The translations under genes and the position numbers were made by a program. Under the pieces are notes generated by a model, which was not told where the DNA came from, did no database searches, and worked only from the letters and a program-made list of their open reading frames with translations. A stretch of DNA of 64,000 bases, taken from contig CANLVO010000001.1 in NCBI GenBank assembly GCA_947494645.1, forward strand, positions 186,001 to 250,000. Direction: 5' to 3'. This DNA is from an uncultured Litoreibacter sp. (GTDB lineage Bacteria; Pseudomonadota; Alphaproteobacteria; Rhodobacterales; Rhodobacteraceae). This document shows positions 6,736 through 12,773 of the stretch, one piece after another (within the stretch, counting starts at the first letter, position 1; the number at the start of each line of letters is the position of its first letter).

Positions 6736-7104
6736 ATGAATCAGGCCGAACTTATCTTGCTGCTTGTGAAAATCTGGGGTGGCGCAGGCGCGCTGGTAGC
6801 ACTTGCGTTTCTTACATTCGGGATAGACCGTTTGGATGAGGACGCGCGCGGAGCCTACGTTTTCCGTCTGCTCATCATCCCCGGGGTGCTGTTGATCTGG
6901 CCGTTGGTTCTTTGGCGCTGGTACATTTTGGCTGATGGCAAAGATGAATGGGCTAAGCGTTACCAGCCGAAACGCAATTCCCACAACATCTTCGCGTTGA
7001 TCATGCCCGTGCTGATCGTAGGCATCATTGCGGCGGGTTGGTCGGTGCGCCAGACTTGGCCCGCAGATGTCGCCCCAGTTCAGCTGTCGGAGCCGGGCCA
7101 ATGA
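6736..7104 (+). CDS. Small membrane protein, first gene of the Rieske/ThDP operon
   Basis: A 122-residue protein that I do not recognise as a named family. It has three hydrophobic segments (about 5-27, 42-62 and 84-105) and a polar loop with DGKDEWAKRYQPKRN between the last two. There are no cysteines and no conserved His pair, so it is unlikely to bind heme or a cluster by itself. Its stop overlaps the start of the ferric-reductase/Rieske gene (ATGA, 7101-7104), which argues for stoichiometric production and a shared membrane complex. A TAGGG seven bases upstream supports the start. Confidence 0.75.
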   Translation: MNQAELILLLVKIWGGAGALVALAFLTFGIDRLDEDARGAYVFRLLIIPGVLLIWPLVLWRWYILADGKDEWAKRYQPKRNSHNIFALIMPVLIVGIIAAGWSVRQTWPADVAPVQLSEPGQ

Positions 7105-8165
7105 GTGTCAAATACATCCCCGTCCAGTGGAACCGCAACAAATGGTTCTATGACTTCGTGATGCTCGCAGGCGTTGTCGCCTTTCTGGTGTTGTTCCTCT
7201 TTGTGAGCCCTGGTCTTCTGAGCCACGAGTTTCCAATCAACCCGCAGGTGCACAACGCCCGTGCCTTTGGGGCCTGTGCCTTTGTGATGCTGACAGTTAT
7301 CCTGTGCATTGGGCCGCTTGCACGGATCGATCCCCGGTTTCTGCCGCTGCTTTATAACCGGCGCCATTTCGGGGTGATGACAACCTTTGTCGCGATCACC
7401 CATGCCAGCTACATCTTGAACTGGTATTTCGCTTTTTCGAAGTCGGACAAGTTCTCGGCACTGCTTTTTGCCAACACCAGCTACACCCAATTGGCTGGCT
7501 TTCCGTTCGAGGCGTTTGGCATTTTTGCGCTGATCTGCCTATTGATATTGGCCGCGACCAGCCATGACTTCTGGATGAAATTCCTGACGCCCCCGGTATG
7601 GAAGCGGCTGCATGCGCTGATCTACTTCGCCTATGCCGCCGTTGTGGCCCATGTCAGCCTTGGCATCATGCAGGACCAGCAGAACCACGTCTTCACCGTG
7701 ATCTTCATCGGTGGGGCGCTCGCGGTGGCGGGCTTGCATGCGTATGCGGCTTGGCTCGACTTGCGCGGTGGAGATGAGGCGGGCACTGTCTCAGAAGGTT
7801 GGATCGAGGTCTGCAGCCCCGCCGACATCAAGAATGGGTTTGCCAAGATCAAGCTACTGCCCAATGGCGAGCGGGTCGCGGTGTTCAACCAAGAGGGCAA
7901 GCTCAGCGCAATCTCGAACGCCTGCGCGCATCAGAACGGGCCGTTGGGCGAGGGCAAGGTGGTGTTCTGCTTGGTGACCTGCCCGTGGCACGGGTTTCAA
8001 TATGATGTCACCAATGGTCGGTCTCCGGCGCCCTTCACCGAGATGGTGCCGACCTACAATCTGCGCCTTGTCGACGGAACGATCCAAGTCGATCCGGAAG
8101 CAAACCCGCCGGGCACCTATGTCGAACCCGTTCCAATCCCCGGCTGGAAGGAAGTTCCTGCATGA
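7101..8165 (+). CDS. Ferric reductase-like transmembrane protein fused to a C-terminal Rieske [2Fe-2S] domain
   Basis: A 354-residue protein starting at MSVKYIPVQW (ATGA overlap with the gene before). Residues about 15-220 form six or so membrane helices of the ferric reductase/MsrQ-like cytochrome b type; histidines in RRHFGV (89), ITHASY (101), RLHALIY (171) and VVAHVSL (184) are in the right places for heme ligands. Residues about 233-335 are a Rieske domain with CAH at 275-277 and CPWH at 294-297, the two Cys/His pairs that hold a [2Fe-2S] cluster. It therefore probably carries electrons across or along the inner membrane. The partner for electrons is unknown, but the operon also encodes a soluble Rieske enzyme. 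The next gene overlaps by 4 bp. Confidence 0.82.
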   Translation: MSVKYIPVQWNRNKWFYDFVMLAGVVAFLVLFLFVSPGLLSHEFPINPQVHNARAFGACAFVMLTVILCIGPLARIDPRFLPLLYNRRHFGVMTTFVAITHASYILNWYFAFSKSDKFSALLFANTSYTQLAGFPFEAFGIFALICLLILAATSHDFWMKFLTPPVWKRLHALIYFAYAAVVAHVSLGIMQDQQNHVFTVIFIGGALAVAGLHAYAAWLDLRGGDEAGTVSEGWIEVCSPADIKNGFAKIKLLPNGERVAVFNQEGKLSAISNACAHQNGPLGEGKVVFCLVTCPWHGFQYDVTNGRSPAPFTEMVPTYNLRLVDGTIQVDPEANPPGTYVEPVPIPGWKEVPA

Positions 8166-8926
8166 GCCAAGAAGACAAACCATTTTTCGTGGGCTACCTT
8201 GACATCCCCGGCCCCCTGCGCCGCTTTCTGTTACTTGCCTGCCTTGCTGTGGTCGGCATTTTTGTGGCCACAGGGCTGCTTATTGGCAGTACGCAAGACG
8301 AACCACCCGCCTCAGGATTCCGCTTCGATTACGGGCGCCAGACCGTCACAGGCGTGATCGAGCTGACCCCGTACCCGCTGCTGCGCGTCACGCAAGGCAA
8401 CGACCTGATCAAGCCGGGCAAAACGCTGATGCTGTCAGGTCAGGGCAAATCCGGTGTGGACGCGCAGGCGATGGGGCTGGAGGGCCAATTGGCCGAAGTC
8501 AGTGGCATCATCCTGCAGCGCGGCACGATTGACATGATGCAGCTGGCAGGCGGCAGGCGAGGGTTGAAAATGGTCGAGGGCGACGCCCCCGAGATGGAGA
8601 CCGAACCATTGGGTCGCTGGAAAGTGGCCGGAGAGATTTGCGACGGAAAATGTTTGAATGGCGCAATGCGGCCGGGCCGTGGACTGGCCCACAAGGCTTG
8701 CGCCGCGCTTTGCCTTGTCGGTGATGTGCCGCCTGTGTTCGTCTCGACCCAGCCCATCGAGGGCTCCGACTTCATGTTGATTACAGGGCCGGACGGCACC
8801 ACGCTGCCCAAAGCGGCCTATGAACATATCGGACAATTTGTCTCTGCTGAGGGGGACCTCGAACGTCGTGGTGACTTGCTAGTCTTGAAGATCGACGCTG
8901 AAACGATCGAGGTGATTGACGGATGA
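8162..8926 (+). CDS. Membrane-anchored four-cysteine protein of unknown function
   Basis: A 254-residue protein with one N-terminal membrane helix (about 20-42) and a soluble domain. The notable part is C160-x3-C164 followed by C180-x3-C184 (CDGKC ... HKACAALC), a pattern that could hold a metal or cluster, followed by GDVPPVFV. The N-terminal half of the soluble domain looks beta-rich and has no catalytic motif I know. It has ATGA overlaps on both sides, so it is made together with the ferric-reductase/Rieske protein and is probably a periplasmic or membrane subunit of the same complex. I cannot assign a named family; function is not inferred beyond possible metal or electron handling. Confidence 0.75.
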   Translation: MSQEDKPFFVGYLDIPGPLRRFLLLACLAVVGIFVATGLLIGSTQDEPPASGFRFDYGRQTVTGVIELTPYPLLRVTQGNDLIKPGKTLMLSGQGKSGVDAQAMGLEGQLAEVSGIILQRGTIDMMQLAGGRRGLKMVEGDAPEMETEPLGRWKVAGEICDGKCLNGAMRPGRGLAHKACAALCLVGDVPPVFVSTQPIEGSDFMLITGPDGTTLPKAAYEHIGQFVSAEGDLERRGDLLVLKIDAETIEVIDG

Positions 8927-9240
8927 AACGCGTCTTTCTGCTGGTGTTCGTTGGGCTGCTGGGCCTGATCATGCTCTACCTCTCCCGGTTCTGGGTCTTT
9001 GATCTTTGGTCCCGCCCCGGACTGTTTGGCTGGGCCGAGCTGAGGCCAAATGGCGGCCTGCTCGCCCGTTGGCTGCGCGGTACGCCCTTCGCCCCGTTCG
9101 AGTTATTGATCTGGGCCGCAGGCGTATTCATGATCCTCACCTATCTGCAGAAGATCGTAGATTACGTCTCACCCCCGCCTGAGACCCCGGCGGCGGATGC
9201 AGATACAACTCCAAAGAAGGACGACGCCCATGACGGATGA
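8923..9240 (+). CDS. Small two-helix membrane protein of the Rieske/ThDP operon
   Basis: A 105-residue protein with two hydrophobic helices (about 4-24 and 63-82), a Trp/Arg-rich segment between them and a Pro/Asp-rich soluble tail. No family was recognised. The ATG overlaps the upstream stop (8923-8926), and its 3' end overlaps the start of the Rieske-ThDP gene by 11 bp. Its conserved-looking place between the membrane part and the soluble enzyme of the operon suggests an anchor or small subunit. Confidence 0.72.
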   Translation: MKRVFLLVFVGLLGLIMLYLSRFWVFDLWSRPGLFGWAELRPNGGLLARWLRGTPFAPFELLIWAAGVFMILTYLQKIVDYVSPPPETPAADADTTPKKDDAHDG

Positions 9241-11209
9241 AGCATTGGACTGGATTAGCGTGGGTCATGTAGACGACCTGCCAGAGGGGCGCGTGAAGAC
9301 CGTTACGGCGCGCACGACATCGATCTGTCTGGTGCATTTCGACGGCCAATGGGCGGCCATGAACAACCATTGCCCGCATCAACGCGGGCCTTTGGGCGAA
9401 GGCTCCATTGAAAAAGGCGTTGATGACAAATGCTGGATCCGCTGCCCATGGCATGGCTGGGACTTTGACCCGCTCACTGGCAAACCTCCCGGTGGGCATG
9501 AAGATACAGGCCAAGACATGTATCCAGTCGATATTCGCGACGGCGAAATCTTTGTGGGTCTTGAAGCAGAGCCACCGCATGAGCGGACCGTGACGGATGT
9601 CATGGTCGACACACTGTCCAACTGGGGCGTGCAGTCGGTCTTTGGCATGGTGGGTCATTCTAACCTTGGCCTATCAGACGCGATCCGGCTGGCGGTTGTA
9701 GACGGCAAGATGCGCTATTTTGGCATTCGTCACGAGGGCGCCGCTGCCTTCGCAGCCTCTGCCTACGGCAAGTTAACCGGAACACCGGCGGCCTGTCTGA
9801 CCATCGCAGGGCCGGGGGCCACGAACCTGCTGACGGGGCTCTGGGACGCCAAGGTTGATCGCGCCCCTGTGCTTGCCCTGACGGGCCAAGTTCAAACGCA
9901 AGTCATGGGCCCCGGCGCGTTTCAGGACATTGATCTTCTCTCGGCCTTTGACGCGGTCACGGCCTTCTCGCAGCCGGTGCTTGGCAGTTCGAACCATGCA
10001 GAGCTGGCCTCCCTTGCCTGCAAGACCGCCATTGTAGAACAGAACGTGGCGCATCTGATCTTCCCTGATGATGTGCAGACCAATCCTTCCGACCAAGAGG
10101 CAGGCGGCCCTGAGGGTCGCATCACGCAAAGCGCGGTCTCGCCCGCGCAAAGCGATGTGGATGAGGCGGCGGCGATGATCAAAGCCGCCAAGCGACCCAT
10201 CATTGTAGTCGGTCATGGTGCCTACCCAATGCGCGGGGATGTCGCGGCTCTGGCCGAGAAACTTGGCACCCCGGTTCTAACCACATTCAAGGCCAAAGGT
10301 CTGATCCCCGACGATCACCCCAATGCAAGTGGAGTGCTGGGCCGGTCCGGCACGCCGATTGCCAGCTGGTTCATGAACGAGGCCGATCTTATCATCGCGC
10401 TGGGTACCAGCTTTTCGAACCATACCGGTATCGAGCGCGGCAAGACGATTATTCAGGTGGATCACGAACGCATGCAGCTCGGCAAGTTCCACCCGGTGAC
10501 TTTGCCCGTTTGGGGCGACGTCGCTGCCTTCTGCGCGGCTCTCACGGAAGCAGACCACAAGAATCCGAAGGCTGTGGATCAAATCTCCGAGCTGGCAGAC
10601 CGTTGGGATATCTGGCGCCGCGAAAAGCAGACACGCCTGCAAGAGAACCTTGGCAAAGGCATCCACTCTTTCGCGATTTTCGAGGCGTTGGGACGGTTGG
10701 TACCGGACAACACCATCTTTGCTGTGGACGTTGGCAACAACACTTATTCCTTTGGCCGTTACCTTGAGACGAAAGGCAGCCAGCGGGTGCTGATGTCGGG
10801 CTATCTGGGCTCCATTGGCTTCGGTCTGCCTGCAGCGATGGGTGCATGGGCAGCAACTCAAGACAAGGATGATTTGAAAGGGTGCAAGGTCGTCTCGATC
10901 TCTGGCGATGGCGGCTTTGGCCAATACCCGATGGAGTTCACCACAGCCGTGAAGTACGGCATGGATATCACCCATATCCTTTTGCATAACGGCGAGCTGG
11001 GCAAAATCTCGAAAGAGCAACGCTCGGGTGAGTGGCCCGTTTGGGAGACCAACTTACAAAACCCTGGCTTCGCCGCCTTCGCACGACTGTGCGGCGGGCA
11101 CGGCGTGAAGGTCACTGAGGCGTCAGAGATTGAGGCCGCGATCAAAGAGGCCCTGGATCACAAAGGCCCCGCTTTGGTGGAAATCATGACCGACGCGGAC
11201 TTGGTCTAA
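9230..11209 (+). CDS. Rieske [2Fe-2S] domain fused to a ThDP-dependent enzyme (acetolactate synthase/pyruvate oxidase-like)
   Basis: A 659-residue protein starting at MTDEALDWIS. Residues about 1-115 are a Rieske ferredoxin domain with CPH at 48-50 and CPWH at 72-75. From about 118 on it is a complete ThDP enzyme: the N-terminal Pyr domain has RHEGAAAFAASAYG with the cofactor-activating Glu169; a central domain (about 305-440) resembles the nucleotide-binding-like domain of this family; and the C-terminal PP domain has GDGGFG at 559-564 and Asn587 for Mg-ThDP. Such enzymes cleave or join C-C bonds next to a keto group. A Rieske cluster fused in front is not the standard architecture and suggests an oxidative, electron-releasing reaction. 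It overlaps the previous gene by 11 bp, and the isochorismatase-like gene follows 17 bp later. Confidence 0.87.
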   Translation: MTDEALDWISVGHVDDLPEGRVKTVTARTTSICLVHFDGQWAAMNNHCPHQRGPLGEGSIEKGVDDKCWIRCPWHGWDFDPLTGKPPGGHEDTGQDMYPVDIRDGEIFVGLEAEPPHERTVTDVMVDTLSNWGVQSVFGMVGHSNLGLSDAIRLAVVDGKMRYFGIRHEGAAAFAASAYGKLTGTPAACLTIAGPGATNLLTGLWDAKVDRAPVLALTGQVQTQVMGPGAFQDIDLLSAFDAVTAFSQPVLGSSNHAELASLACKTAIVEQNVAHLIFPDDVQTNPSDQEAGGPEGRITQSAVSPAQSDVDEAAAMIKAAKRPIIVVGHGAYPMRGDVAALAEKLGTPVLTTFKAKGLIPDDHPNASGVLGRSGTPIASWFMNEADLIIALGTSFSNHTGIERGKTIIQVDHERMQLGKFHPVTLPVWGDVAAFCAALTEADHKNPKAVDQISELADRWDIWRREKQTRLQENLGKGIHSFAIFEALGRLVPDNTIFAVDVGNNTYSFGRYLETKGSQRVLMSGYLGSIGFGLPAAMGAWAATQDKDDLKGCKVVSISGDGGFGQYPMEFTTAVKYGMDITHILLHNGELGKISKEQRSGEWPVWETNLQNPGFAAFARLCGGHGVKVTEASEIEAAIKEALDHKGPALVEIMTDADLV

Positions 11210-11226
11210 CTGTCATAGGGGGGAAT

Positions 11227-11844
11227 ATGGCAGAACAACCGTTCCTTGTCGGCCAGCCTGTGCTGCTGGTTATCGACATTCAGGCCAGCACCTTCATTGA
11301 CGACAGCACGGAACGCTCCATCCCCAACATGCCTGGCTATCGCAGCCGGATGGAAAAAGCCTGCGCGCTGGTCGCCCATGCGCGCGCCACCGACGTTCCT
11401 GTCATTTTCATGCAAGAGGCCCATCGCCCTGACCTGATCGACTTTGGGCGCGAGCTGGACGGTTCGGAAACGGTACACTGTCTCGAAGGTGATCCGCGCA
11501 CCGAACTGGCGGTGGAGCAACTGCAAATTACAGATGTGGATTACACCATAAAGAAGCGCCGCTACTCGTGTTTCTTCGGCACTGATTTGGAGATTCTGCT
11601 GAAAGGTCTGAAAGCCGAGACACTGGTGCTGGTCGGCGGTCTCACGGATGTCTGTGTACATTATACTTTCGCAGACGGGCACCAGATGGATTACTATTGC
11701 AGGGTTGTCGAGGACTGTGTCGGCGGCTCGACTGACGCGGCGCATGAGGCCTCTCTAGCAGCGATGGAATACCTGCAAACAGGCGCGAGACGCTCGTTTG
11801 ATGAGACTTGCGCCGCATTCTCAGCATTGGAGCACAACGCATGA
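11227..11844 (+). CDS. Isochorismatase-like cysteine hydrolase
   Basis: A 205-residue protein with the catalytic triad of the family: Asp17 in VIDIQ, a Lys (109/110) in IKKRRYSCF, and the nucleophile Cys143 in GLTDVCVHYT. The family includes nicotinamidases, N-carbamoylsarcosine amidases, biuret hydrolase and isochorismatases; most of them hydrolyse an amide or ureido bond. The substrate cannot be deduced. The start has a purine-rich AGGGGGGA six bases upstream. The stop overlaps the BKACE start (ATGA, 11841-11844). Confidence 0.86.
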   Translation: MAEQPFLVGQPVLLVIDIQASTFIDDSTERSIPNMPGYRSRMEKACALVAHARATDVPVIFMQEAHRPDLIDFGRELDGSETVHCLEGDPRTELAVEQLQITDVDYTIKKRRYSCFFGTDLEILLKGLKAETLVLVGGLTDVCVHYTFADGHQMDYYCRVVEDCVGGSTDAAHEASLAAMEYLQTGARRSFDETCAAFSALEHNA

Positions 11845-12773
11845 GCAAACCCGTCATTATTACCTGCGCGCCAACGGGCGGTATTCATACGCCCACCATG
11901 TCGCCGCATCTGCCGATCACACCTGCCGAGATTGCGACCGCGAGCATCGAGGCGGCGGAGGCAGGAGCGTCGATCATCCACCTTCATGCCCGTGATCCCG
12001 AGACCGGCAAACCCGACCCAAGACCCGAGACCTTCCAGCAATTTTTGCCGGTGATCAAACAGGCCACGGATGCGGTGGTGAATGTCTCGACAGGCGCCGG
12101 GCTGGGTATGAGCATGGACGAGCGCCTGCTTGCCGCGACGACCGCAAGCCCGGAAATGGCGTCACTCAACATGGGTTCAATGAACTTCGGAATATTCCCG
12201 CTTCTGGAAAAATACGACGACTGGAAATTCGACTGGGAACCAGAATTCTTGGGAATGACCAAGGACTTCATCTTCCCCAACACCTTTGCCACCATCGAAT
12301 ACGCCCTAAAGAATTTGGGCGAGGCGCATGGTACAAAGTTTGAATTCGAGTGCTACGATTTAGGCCATCTCTACAACGTCAAATGGTTCGTCGAGAAAGG
12401 GCTGATCAAGCCTCCGTTTTTCATTCAGTTCGTTCTTGGCATCCTGGGCGGGGCCGGGGCCGAACTGGAAAACCTGCAGCACCTCAACCGTATGGCGGAC
12501 AAACTCTTCGGGTCTGAAAACTACGAGTGGTCAGTGCTAGGCGCGGGCAAGGCTCAAATGCCAATGGCAACGCAGGCGGCTTTGCTGGGGGGCAATTTGC
12601 GTGTCGGGTTGGAGGACAGCTTGTTCATTGGTAAAGGCGAGCTGGCCACGTCAAATGCGCAACAGGTTCGCAAGGTCCGTACGATCGTCGAGAGCCTCGG
12701 TCTTGAGGTTGCAACCCCAGCGCAGGCGCGTGAAAGGCTCGCCTTGAAAGGCGGCGATCAAGTCGGGTTCTAA
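11841..12773 (+). CDS. Beta-keto acid cleavage enzyme (BKACE, formerly DUF849)
   Basis: A 310-residue protein starting at MSKPVIITCAPTGG. HLHARDP (His47, His49) provides the zinc ligands of the BKACE family, and NVSTGAG, SLNMGSMNF and FECYDLGHL are further family motifs. BKACEs transfer an acyl unit between a beta-keto acid and acetyl-CoA, giving acetoacetate and an acyl-CoA; the founding member (Kce) works in lysine fermentation, and others act in carnitine and less understood pathways. It is the last gene of the operon and converges on trmD with 4 bp of overlap at the stops. Specificity is open. Confidence 0.88.
   Translation: MSKPVIITCAPTGGIHTPTMSPHLPITPAEIATASIEAAEAGASIIHLHARDPETGKPDPRPETFQQFLPVIKQATDAVVNVSTGAGLGMSMDERLLAATTASPEMASLNMGSMNFGIFPLLEKYDDWKFDWEPEFLGMTKDFIFPNTFATIEYALKNLGEAHGTKFEFECYDLGHLYNVKWFVEKGLIKPPFFIQFVLGILGGAGAELENLQHLNRMADKLFGSENYEWSVLGAGKAQMPMATQAALLGGNLRVGLEDSLFIGKGELATSNAQQVRKVRTIVESLGLEVATPAQARERLALKGGDQVGF

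Follow-up and report, generated by a model that had tools for sequence, protein, structure and literature searches.

A recurrent gene set around a Rieske-ThDP fusion protein resembles an undescribed electron-transfer module of marine bacteria

ThDP enzymes of the pyruvate oxidase type are known to reduce oxygen or quinone with electrons from their flavin, and the C-terminal peptide of PoxB is membrane-binding. Pyruvate:ferredoxin oxidoreductase is also a ThDP enzyme, from which the electrons leave by Fe-S clusters; it resembles the fusion protein g5 described here in the way it works, but it belongs to another ThDP subfamily and has another cluster type. Proteins combining CDGSH and Glu_synthase domains are catalogued in PMC5859297. 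The physiological role of BKACE15 of Paracoccus denitrificans is called unknown in PMC11961710, where gene context suggests aromatic degradation. Literature searches yielded no publication describing a redox module around g5.

The window, i.e. the whole analysed stretch of 64,000 nucleotides from an uncultured Litoreibacter sp., contains seven ORFs of one direction at positions 6736-12773 (g1-g7). The ORFs were called mechanically by script; for g2, g5 and g7 an inner ATG was used in place of the mechanical first start.

6736..7104, + strand: g1, small membrane protein of 122 aa with three hydrophobic segments (ORF call; segment prediction)
7101..8165, + strand: g2, Ferric_reduct-type membrane protein of 354 aa carrying a Rieske domain at the C-terminus (Pfam)
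7923..7991, + strand: Rieske cluster-binding stretch of g2, residues 275-297 (Pfam; aligned rows)
8162..8926, + strand: g3, one membrane segment and a predicted outside domain, 254 aa (segment prediction)
8639..8713, + strand: conserved C-x3-C ... H-x2-C-x3-C of g3 (C160, C164, H177, C180, C184; aligned rows)
8923..9240, + strand: g4, small membrane protein, 105 aa (ORF call)
9230..11209, + strand: g5, Rieske-ThDP fusion of the pyruvate oxidase type, 659 aa (family profiles; Foldseek)
9251..9487, + strand: Rieske domain of g5, residues 8-86 (Pfam; aligned rows)
9587..11200, + strand: ThDP-enzyme part of g5, residues 120-657 (Pfam; PDB alignment; aligned rows)
11227..11844, + strand: g6, isochorismatase-family cysteine hydrolase, 205 aa, a local addition outside the conserved core (Pfam; 80-locus context)
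11841..12773, + strand: g7, BKACE of the 3,5-dioxohexanoate group, 310 aa, a local addition outside the conserved core (NF053538)

Five of the six junctions overlap, by 4 bases at g1/g2, g2/g3, g3/g4 and g6/g7 and by 11 bases at g4/g5; only g5/g6 shows a gap (17 bases). This agrees with the sequence-only reading of this DNA, which had described seven genes with five overlapping junctions. Its domain calls were also recovered with Pfam (Ferric_reduct and Rieske in g2, Rieske and ThDP in g5, hydrolase in g6, BKACE in g7), and the Pfam scan gave no family above the cut-off for g1, g3 and g4.

The neighbourhood of g5 was compared in a locus set comprising the best 80 of 287 g5 relatives, 9 of which have less than 2 kb downstream of g5. 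In these 80 loci, g5 was accompanied by the g1-g3 cassette in 43, with a g1 homolog directly ahead of g2 likewise in 43, and by a g4 homolog in 27. The most frequent companion (58/80) was GltSR, a second fusion consisting of a Rieske and an FMN glutamate-synthase domain, and a cation/proton antiporter precedes GltSR in 32/80. The set is constant and its order shuffled (GLT-g1234-G5, GLT-G5-g123, g123-GLT-G5, G5-GLT-g1234), and the locus L244 of the class sample shows a divergent arrangement. In 38 adjacent pairs the GltSR stop lies -4 to +49 bases from the g5 start, with a 4-base overlap in 8 of them.

The analysis used samples of 198 (the window's family), 289 (class) and 299 genomes, which are draws from larger groups. 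All 198 family genomes match g5 at E ≤ 0.001 via ordinary ThDP enzymes; g5 was assigned to the 13 genomes with matches of at least 1044 bits, the next best listed match having 263 bits. GltSR was counted if the match reaches the Rieske part, as in 23 of 90 matched family genomes (partial or split in G098, G157, G180 and G184) and 8 of 12 matched class genomes. Among the 13 g5 genomes of the family, 12 contain GltSR (p 3e-12) and 12 contain g2 (1.3 expected, p 3e-13), and in the class sample 7 of the 8 GltSR genomes contain g5 (p 4e-10), these p-values being optimistic because the genomes are related. In the class sample GltSR was present in 7 of 13 g5 genomes and absent from 6, which were rechecked at E ≤ 1e-40. 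Within the family sample, g5 is missing from 8 of the 20 g2 genomes and from 11 of the 23 GltSR genomes. An antiporter homolog was detected at E ≤ 1e-30 in only 5 of 13 g5 genomes. The antiporter of Halorarius and the alphaproteobacterial one belong to the same Pfam family, with no direct match between them.

The genes g1-g5, usually together with GltSR, look like an undescribed electron-transfer module of marine bacteria. Our leading reading, to which we give a probability of about 0.43, takes g1-g5 as the locally encoded half of a Rieske-wired redox module, with GltSR as a further part that lies elsewhere in the genome. The expectation that the genes are kept together across genomes holds for this smaller core and fails for the set of seven; which genes belong together is now visible. 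In the window genome, GltSR is encoded on a contig other than that of g5, and a reading of the window itself could not include this main partner.

The membrane part of g2 matches PF01794, the family of MsrQ and ferric-reductase-type heme membrane proteins, and is below the NCBIfam cut-off for MsrQ (38.2 vs 130 bits). Unlike MsrQ, g2 possesses a C-terminal Rieske fusion and the partners g1, g3 and g4. Its Rieske ligands (C275, H277, C294, H297) and five further histidines (H89, H101, H155, H171, H184) reach at least 97% conservation across 61 aligned rows. The pairs H89/H101 and H171/H184 are spaced 12 and 13, and family and conserved histidines point to putative heme binding. The ligand pattern C-x-H ... 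C-x2-H is present in the aligned rows of g2, g5 and GltSR. The protein g3, with one predicted membrane segment, fits the four-cysteine membrane protein proposed before; its four cysteines and H177 are conserved to at least 97% across 65 aligned rows and invariant in 35. Its AlphaFold model (mean pLDDT 83.2) gave OB-like matches in the PDB, none at E ≤ 0.001, and these are so weak that no function was taken from the fold.

One scanned GltSR showed the Rieske domain, a Glu_synthase domain (PF01645, 302 bits) and weaker overlapping FMN/IMPDH matches; amidotransferase and GXGXG domains were absent from it, and the score for the glutamate synthase large subunit was 128.8 against a cut-off of 1047. 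Both its Rieske ligands and the cysteines of the 3Fe-4S site (C451, C457, C462) are at least 97% conserved in 83 aligned rows. The CDGSH + Glu_synthase proteins share with GltSR the Glu_synthase domain with a fused 2Fe-2S input domain, and their relatives in the window's family share 67-70% identity with GltSR in the FMN part. However, a CDGSH pair replaces the Rieske domain, and the neighbours differ, with GST-type clusters in 9 and hemerythrin-type clusters in 8 of 20 fetched stretches (one of each scanned). Long forms of g5 carry two CDGSH domains (4/4 scanned) and Fer4_19 (3/4) ahead of the Rieske domain, i.e. up to four cluster-binding domains are stacked ahead of the ThDP part. Such forms with two CDGSH domains occur in 5 of the 13 g5 genomes of the class sample. 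In addition, three haloarchaeal plasmids carry both fusions, g5 and GltSR.

The stress-like context of these genes would also fit Rieske domains that act as redox sensors, where oxidation or loss of the cluster under oxidative or electrophile stress toggles a plain ThDP ligase or decarboxylase and a glutamate-synthase-like enzyme beside pH- or K+-adjusting antiporters. Besides the antiporters ahead of GltSR, the g5 of Mycobacteroides, which adjoins an FMN reductase and a CPA2-like antiporter (below the cut-off of that family), and the GST- and hemerythrin-type surroundings of the CDGSH-GltS sister speak for such sensors. Nevertheless, we regard them as rather unlikely, since they leave the membrane Rieske/heme-type protein in 12 of 13 g5 genomes and the stack of up to four cluster-binding domains unexplained. 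For a redox module, the antiporters often located nearby point to a role under salt, pH or redox stress.

According to Pfam, g5 consists of a Rieske and three ThDP-enzyme domains, of which the middle one is strongly conserved in the alignment, and the predicted model shows a fold of the pyruvate oxidase type. This model was built on 44 rows, all at least 72% identical. The first 15 Foldseek matches were PoxB and PQO chains (PDB 3eya, 9ev5; TM to target 0.78-0.88), and AHAS chains followed closely (8.5e-39 vs 2.2e-40). The scores of g5 were below the cut-offs for pyruvate oxidase (PRK08611, 392.6 vs 742 bits), the ubiquinone-dependent enzyme (PRK09124, 292.5 vs 792 bits) and acetolactate synthase (TIGR00118, 284.5 vs 538.35 bits). 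A sulfoacetaldehyde/taurine route was rejected, with an Xsc score of 214.6 against a cut-off of 676.4 bits.

Within the ThDP part, E169, D560 and E596 occur in 105/105 aligned rows and N587 in 101/105. Glu596 aligns to a Glu of PoxB, where AHAS I has Gln, and K592 (105/105 rows) stands at the position of a phenylalanine in PoxB, so that a flavin step may differ. PoxB further differs from g5 in that its aligned chain starts at the ThDP part (PoxB residue 3 corresponds to g5 residue 118) with no Rieske domain ahead. The alignment ends at residue 527 of 572 of PoxB and g5 ends five residues on; therefore, the C-terminal membrane peptide of PoxB is absent from g5.

Regarding overall sequence score, AHAS I is the best PDB match of g5 (214 bits; PoxB 212 bits), and the active-site stretch SGxLGxxGFG is closer to AHAS than to PoxB. 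Relative to AHAS, the Rieske domain of g5 is an extra. The match to AHAS I would be expected if g5 were an ordinary ligase (acetolactate synthase or sulfoacetaldehyde type) whose Rieske fold serves structure and not redox chemistry, yet the four Rieske ligands of g5 (C48, H50, C72, H75) are kept in 105/105 aligned rows from alphaproteobacteria to archaea, which makes an ordinary ligase unlikely.

With the gene set, its recurrence and co-occurrence, the conserved cluster ligands and the predicted fold of g5 directly supported, g5 as part of a redox module most likely oxidises a 2-oxo acid and releases the electrons via its own Rieske domain to g2 as acceptor, where we infer both substrate and direction. 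In this scheme g5 would form the ThDP adduct of a 2-oxo acid, perhaps pyruvate-like, and oxidise it, possibly via a bound flavin by analogy with PoxB. It would not dock on the membrane for quinone reduction; its own Rieske cluster would take up the electrons and relay them to the Rieske domain of g2, which is presumably placed inside the cell. Two putative hemes may then conduct them across the membrane to quinone or to the outside domain of g3, and GltSR might likewise consume these electrons, or supply them, at its FMN and 3Fe-4S centre. A link from a ThDP enzyme via its Rieske cluster to a membrane Rieske/heme protein had already been suggested from the sequence; as an inference it gained support from the 12 of 13 g5 genomes with g2 (1.3 expected), from the neighbourhood of the genes in several orders and from the pyruvate:quinone oxidoreductases as best structural neighbours of g5.

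More tentatively, and with considerable doubt, g5 may represent a new class of 2-oxo-acid oxidoreductases, in which a pyruvate-oxidase-type ThDP enzyme with a fused Rieske exit (in some lineages a CDGSH2-4Fe4S-Rieske chain), a Rieske/heme membrane conduit and electron exchange with GltSR would link the oxidation of 2-oxo acids to the formation of amino acids and to electron flow at the membrane, in bacteria as well as haloarchaea. If this is true, the Rieske-bearing g5 family, which ranges from marine alphaproteobacteria to haloarchaea, and GltSR would constitute a new wiring of 2-oxo-acid chemistry to the membrane, and GltSR-like and CDGSH-GltS proteins would obtain a first testable role.

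Electrons could also flow in reverse, from the membrane via g2 and the Rieske domains, and drive a reductive g5 reaction (reductive carboxylation or a radical ThDP step) as well as glutamate formation on GltSR. Ferric_reduct-type proteins can carry electrons both ways and FMN domains of the glutamate synthase type are reductive, but the closest structures in Foldseek are oxidative pyruvate oxidases and the potentials of Rieske-type ferredoxins are high for reductive carboxylation; this direction is thus very unlikely.

The BKACE g7 exceeds the cut-off of NCBIfam NF053538 (502.9 vs 430 bits), which places it in the 3,5-dioxohexanoate group. In the PDB it scores highest against 3e02, an uncharacterised protein (410.3 bits), and it matches BKACE15 (PDB 8rio) with 380.7 bits, from which it differs by its position beside g5, a local addition only. 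The gene g6 was found in 3 of the 13 g5 genomes of the family sample (expected 1.3, p 0.13), a non-significant association, and g7 was weakly enriched at an identity of at least 73% (4/13, expected 1.05, p 0.013) and not at a looser cut (6/13, expected 4.7, p 0.32). These values, and the pair following g5 in 1 of the 80 best loci, that of the nearest relative, argue against the proposal that hydrolase and BKACE process the products of g5. That all seven genes form one catabolic operon, with ThDP oxidation followed by hydrolase and BKACE, would fit the gene overlaps of the window, an identical gene order in L009, the proximity of g6 and g7 in L202 and the weak enrichment of g7, but is highly improbable in view of this single locus in 80 and of the pair in G054 (L202), which lies on a contig other than that of g5 beside a choline-sulfatase and a ring-hydroxylating oxygenase; a seven-gene catabolic pathway as conserved unit was rejected. 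The genes g6 and g7 are best explained as an unrelated pair of catabolic genes that arrived downstream of g5 in the lineage of the window. Riboflavin/lumichrome degradation (PMC12746152), in which a Rieske oxygenase and a ThDP enzyme likewise take part, was also rejected: organism and gene set differ, and the text consulted describes a system without BKACE or Rieske-ThDP fusion. Finally, two genomes that are distant but of the same family carry an IlvD-type gene next to g5.

The window (G000:C1:186001-250000) lies in a genome of 3.44 Mb on 8 contigs. ORF calling and a check of the junctions gave the seven ORFs, with the same strand and overlaps, that the sequence-only reading had described (6736-12773, plus strand). 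These genes encode two small membrane proteins (g1, g4), a ferric reductase-type protein with a Rieske domain (g2), a four-cysteine membrane protein (g3), a Rieske-ThDP fusion (g5), an isochorismatase-family cysteine hydrolase (g6) and a BKACE (g7). That reading had joined all seven in one pathway, which proved half right: g1 to g5 recur, together with GltSR, a fusion of a Rieske and an FMN glutamate synthase domain, but the seven-gene order does not, as g6 and g7 lie behind g5 at a single one of the 71 loci that extend at least 2 kb past it. This locus, L009 from an uncultured Litoreibacter, has a g5 96% identical to that of the window and is the closest named locus among the best 80 of 287 g5 relatives. 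The object of interest is the recurring module of g1 to g5 and GltSR.

The gene neighbourhood of g5 was mapped by tblastn in the best 80 of the 287 relatives. GltSR was present at 58 of the 80 loci, g1, g2 and g3 at 43 each, a cation/proton antiporter at 32, g4 at 27, a DUF5996-like protein at 13, a small membrane protein ("TRK") at 9, and g6 and g7 at one each (L009). The name TRK refers to what we take to be a K+-channel-like motif; the one member scanned had no Pfam match. Of the loci that extend 6 kb or more upstream and 2 kb or more downstream of g5 (58 in all), 47 had GltSR, 39 had g2 and 54 had either or both. The g1-g2-g3 set can separate GltSR from g5, follow g5, precede GltSR, follow GltSR where g5 comes first, or be divergent (L244); due to this varied placement, the linkage is not merely the common descent of a single order. 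Directly behind g5 or behind GltSR, depending on the genome, a further protein is encoded (L249, 10364-11104; L255, 10840-11688), a relative of one with a sub-threshold DUF5996 match. One g5 locus (L088) is labelled as a Nitrosomonas MAG and groups with alphaproteobacterial rows in the tree; it is probably a mis-binned contig.

Genome-wide, g5 occurred in 13 of 198 genomes of the family sample, g2 and g6 in 20 each, GltSR in 23 (four of these partial or split) and g7 in 16 at at least 73% identity or in 72 at E ≤ 1e-110. GltSR and g2 were each present in 12 of the 13 g5 genomes (expected 1.5 and 1.3, respectively). The corresponding numbers were 3 for g6 (expected 1.3; p 0.13), and 4 (expected 1.05; p 0.013) or 6 (expected 4.7) for g7 at the strict or loose threshold. 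An antiporter homolog (E ≤ 1e-30) was found in 5 of the 13 and is thus a frequent, not an obligate, neighbour. In the class sample (289 genomes), g5 occurred in 13 and GltSR in 8, seven of which also had g5, so that GltSR without g5 is rare there. Five of the six g5 genomes without GltSR possess a long form of g5; a looser GltSR search in these six returned glutamate synthase domain matches of 36-38% in two and nothing in four. All five g5 genomes of the phylum sample (299 genomes) belong to the class of the window.

In GltSR, the Rieske domain is followed by the FMN-binding conserved glutamate synthase domain (PF01645, 302 bits, one member scanned). The Rieske ligands C43, H45, C62 and H65 and the 3Fe-4S cysteines C451, C457 and C462 are conserved to at least 97% (83 rows). 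The window genome encodes GltSR at G000:C2:542912-544516 (81% identity to the query), about 2.3 kb upstream of two ORFs (487 and 1522 aa); the longer one matches the glutamate synthase domain. A sister protein (matches in G001 and G151; one member scanned) is 67-70% identical to GltSR across the FMN part and carries a CDGSH pair in place of the Rieske domain. Of 20 stretches fetched around the sister genes (L280-L299), 9 had a GST-type cluster and 8 had a hemerythrin-type cluster; one example of each kind was scanned. CDGSH domains combined with Glu_synthase, Fer4_19 or Rieske_2 are already catalogued, and the available text of that paper gives no function for the Glu_synthase kind (PMC5859297).

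CDGSH domains also occur in the long g5 forms, which were found as frames of 817-936 aa in 5 of the 13 g5 genomes of the class sample, with two CDGSH matches in each. In the four scanned by Pfam, two CDGSH domains (4/4) and Fer4_19 (3/4) lie upstream of the Rieske and ThDP parts.

Long forms of g5 (797-925 aa)
L250, 9019-11409: two CDGSH ahead of Rieske/ThDP (Pfam scan)
L251, 9491-12148: two CDGSH ahead of Rieske/ThDP (Pfam scan)
L252 (= G428), 7557-10190: two CDGSH matches (CDGSH search; outside the four scanned by Pfam)
L253, 9593-12205: two CDGSH ahead of Rieske/ThDP (Pfam scan)
L254, 7941-10715: two CDGSH ahead of Rieske/ThDP (Pfam scan)

Together with the CDGSH pair of the GltSR sister, this stacking indicates that both enzymes swap and stack Fe-S input domains, which fits with electron transfer. 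Directly upstream of long g5, two small genomes from a single family carry a dihydroxy-acid dehydratase-type gene (L251, 12189-14060; L252, 5676-7514).

Plasmid records yielded five full-length g5 homologs (52-59% identity), four from haloarchaea and one from Mycobacteroides abscessus. Three of the four haloarchaeal plasmids have a GltSR match spanning the Rieske and FMN parts (60-61%). In Halorarius and Salinirubellus it is no more than about 4 kb from the ThDP gene, in Halorubrum about 17 kb. All five ThDP proteins, and both GltS proteins examined, show the Rieske ligand patterns. In Halorarius, a Na+/H+ antiporter directly behind the ThDP gene belongs to the same Pfam family as the alphaproteobacterial antiporter; a direct match to the alphaproteobacterial query was not found. 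In Haloferax, Halorubrum and Salinirubellus, no antiporter is annotated within 8 kb of the gene. Near the Mycobacteroides g5 (L304, 3271-5861) are an FMN reductase and an antiporter (best NCBIfam match CPA2, below cut-off), and the alphaproteobacterial L253 encodes an FMN reductase of this kind (44% identical) between g5 and an antiporter (7505-9513). On Rhizobium plasmids (L305 and L306, the two records examined out of five), g2-g3 homologs are preceded by an SDR gene, and a ThDP-binding gene that lacks a Rieske domain lies close by; L305 also carries an ECF sigma factor, NrsF and a chlorite dismutase-family gene.

The first 15 Foldseek matches of the g5 model (mean pLDDT 82.7; alignment of 44 rows, at least 72% identical) were chains of E. 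coli PoxB and Corynebacterium PQO, with Lactobacillus pyruvate oxidase and AHAS close behind. The Rieske ligands, the ThDP residue Glu169, Asp560 of the GDG motif and Glu596 were conserved in 105 of 105 rows. Glu596 aligns with Glu in PoxB, whereas AHAS I has Gln at this position; the corresponding Glu of Lactobacillus pyruvate oxidase, E483, is important in catalysis. Unlike PoxB, g5 lacks the membrane peptide. The segment script found five hydrophobic segments in g2, with three basic residues among the first 18. A sixth, around H89-H101, was not found by the script and is assumed from the family; with six segments, the Rieske domain of g2 would face inside. The histidine pairs H89/H101 and H171/H184 follow the spacing that is the rule in two-heme ferric reductases. 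In g3, which has one membrane segment, the conserved C-x3-C/H-x2-C-x3-C site is predicted to lie outside. A putative wire, by which electrons would pass from the ThDP of g5 via its own Rieske cluster to the Rieske cluster of g2, the hemes and g3, is anatomically possible. For the module as a whole, a reading in which g5 oxidises a 2-oxo acid and delivers electrons in this way is given a probability of roughly 0.43, slightly lowered because GltSR is absent from 6 of the 13 class-sample g5 genomes and because of the closeness of AHAS. Among the literature matches listed, mostly from non-subscription sources, so that absence is unproven, neither Rieske-ThDP fusions nor Rieske-GltS proteins were the subject of a paper, and the combined topic of Rieske, pyruvate oxidase, glutamate synthase and antiporter gave no match.

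The protein g7 scores above the cut-off of the NCBIfam equivalog for 3,5-dioxohexanoate BKACE. It also resembles BKACE15, for which the available text of PMC11961710 describes the physiological role as unknown. The nearest structures to g6, at a weak match (60.5 bits), are N-carbamoylsarcosine amidase and biuret hydrolase. In one genome (G054), g6 and g7 lie on a different contig from g5, separated by about 5 kb that includes a choline-sulfatase gene (over cut-off); directly upstream of g6 is a gene for a GbcA-like oxygenase (below cut-off).
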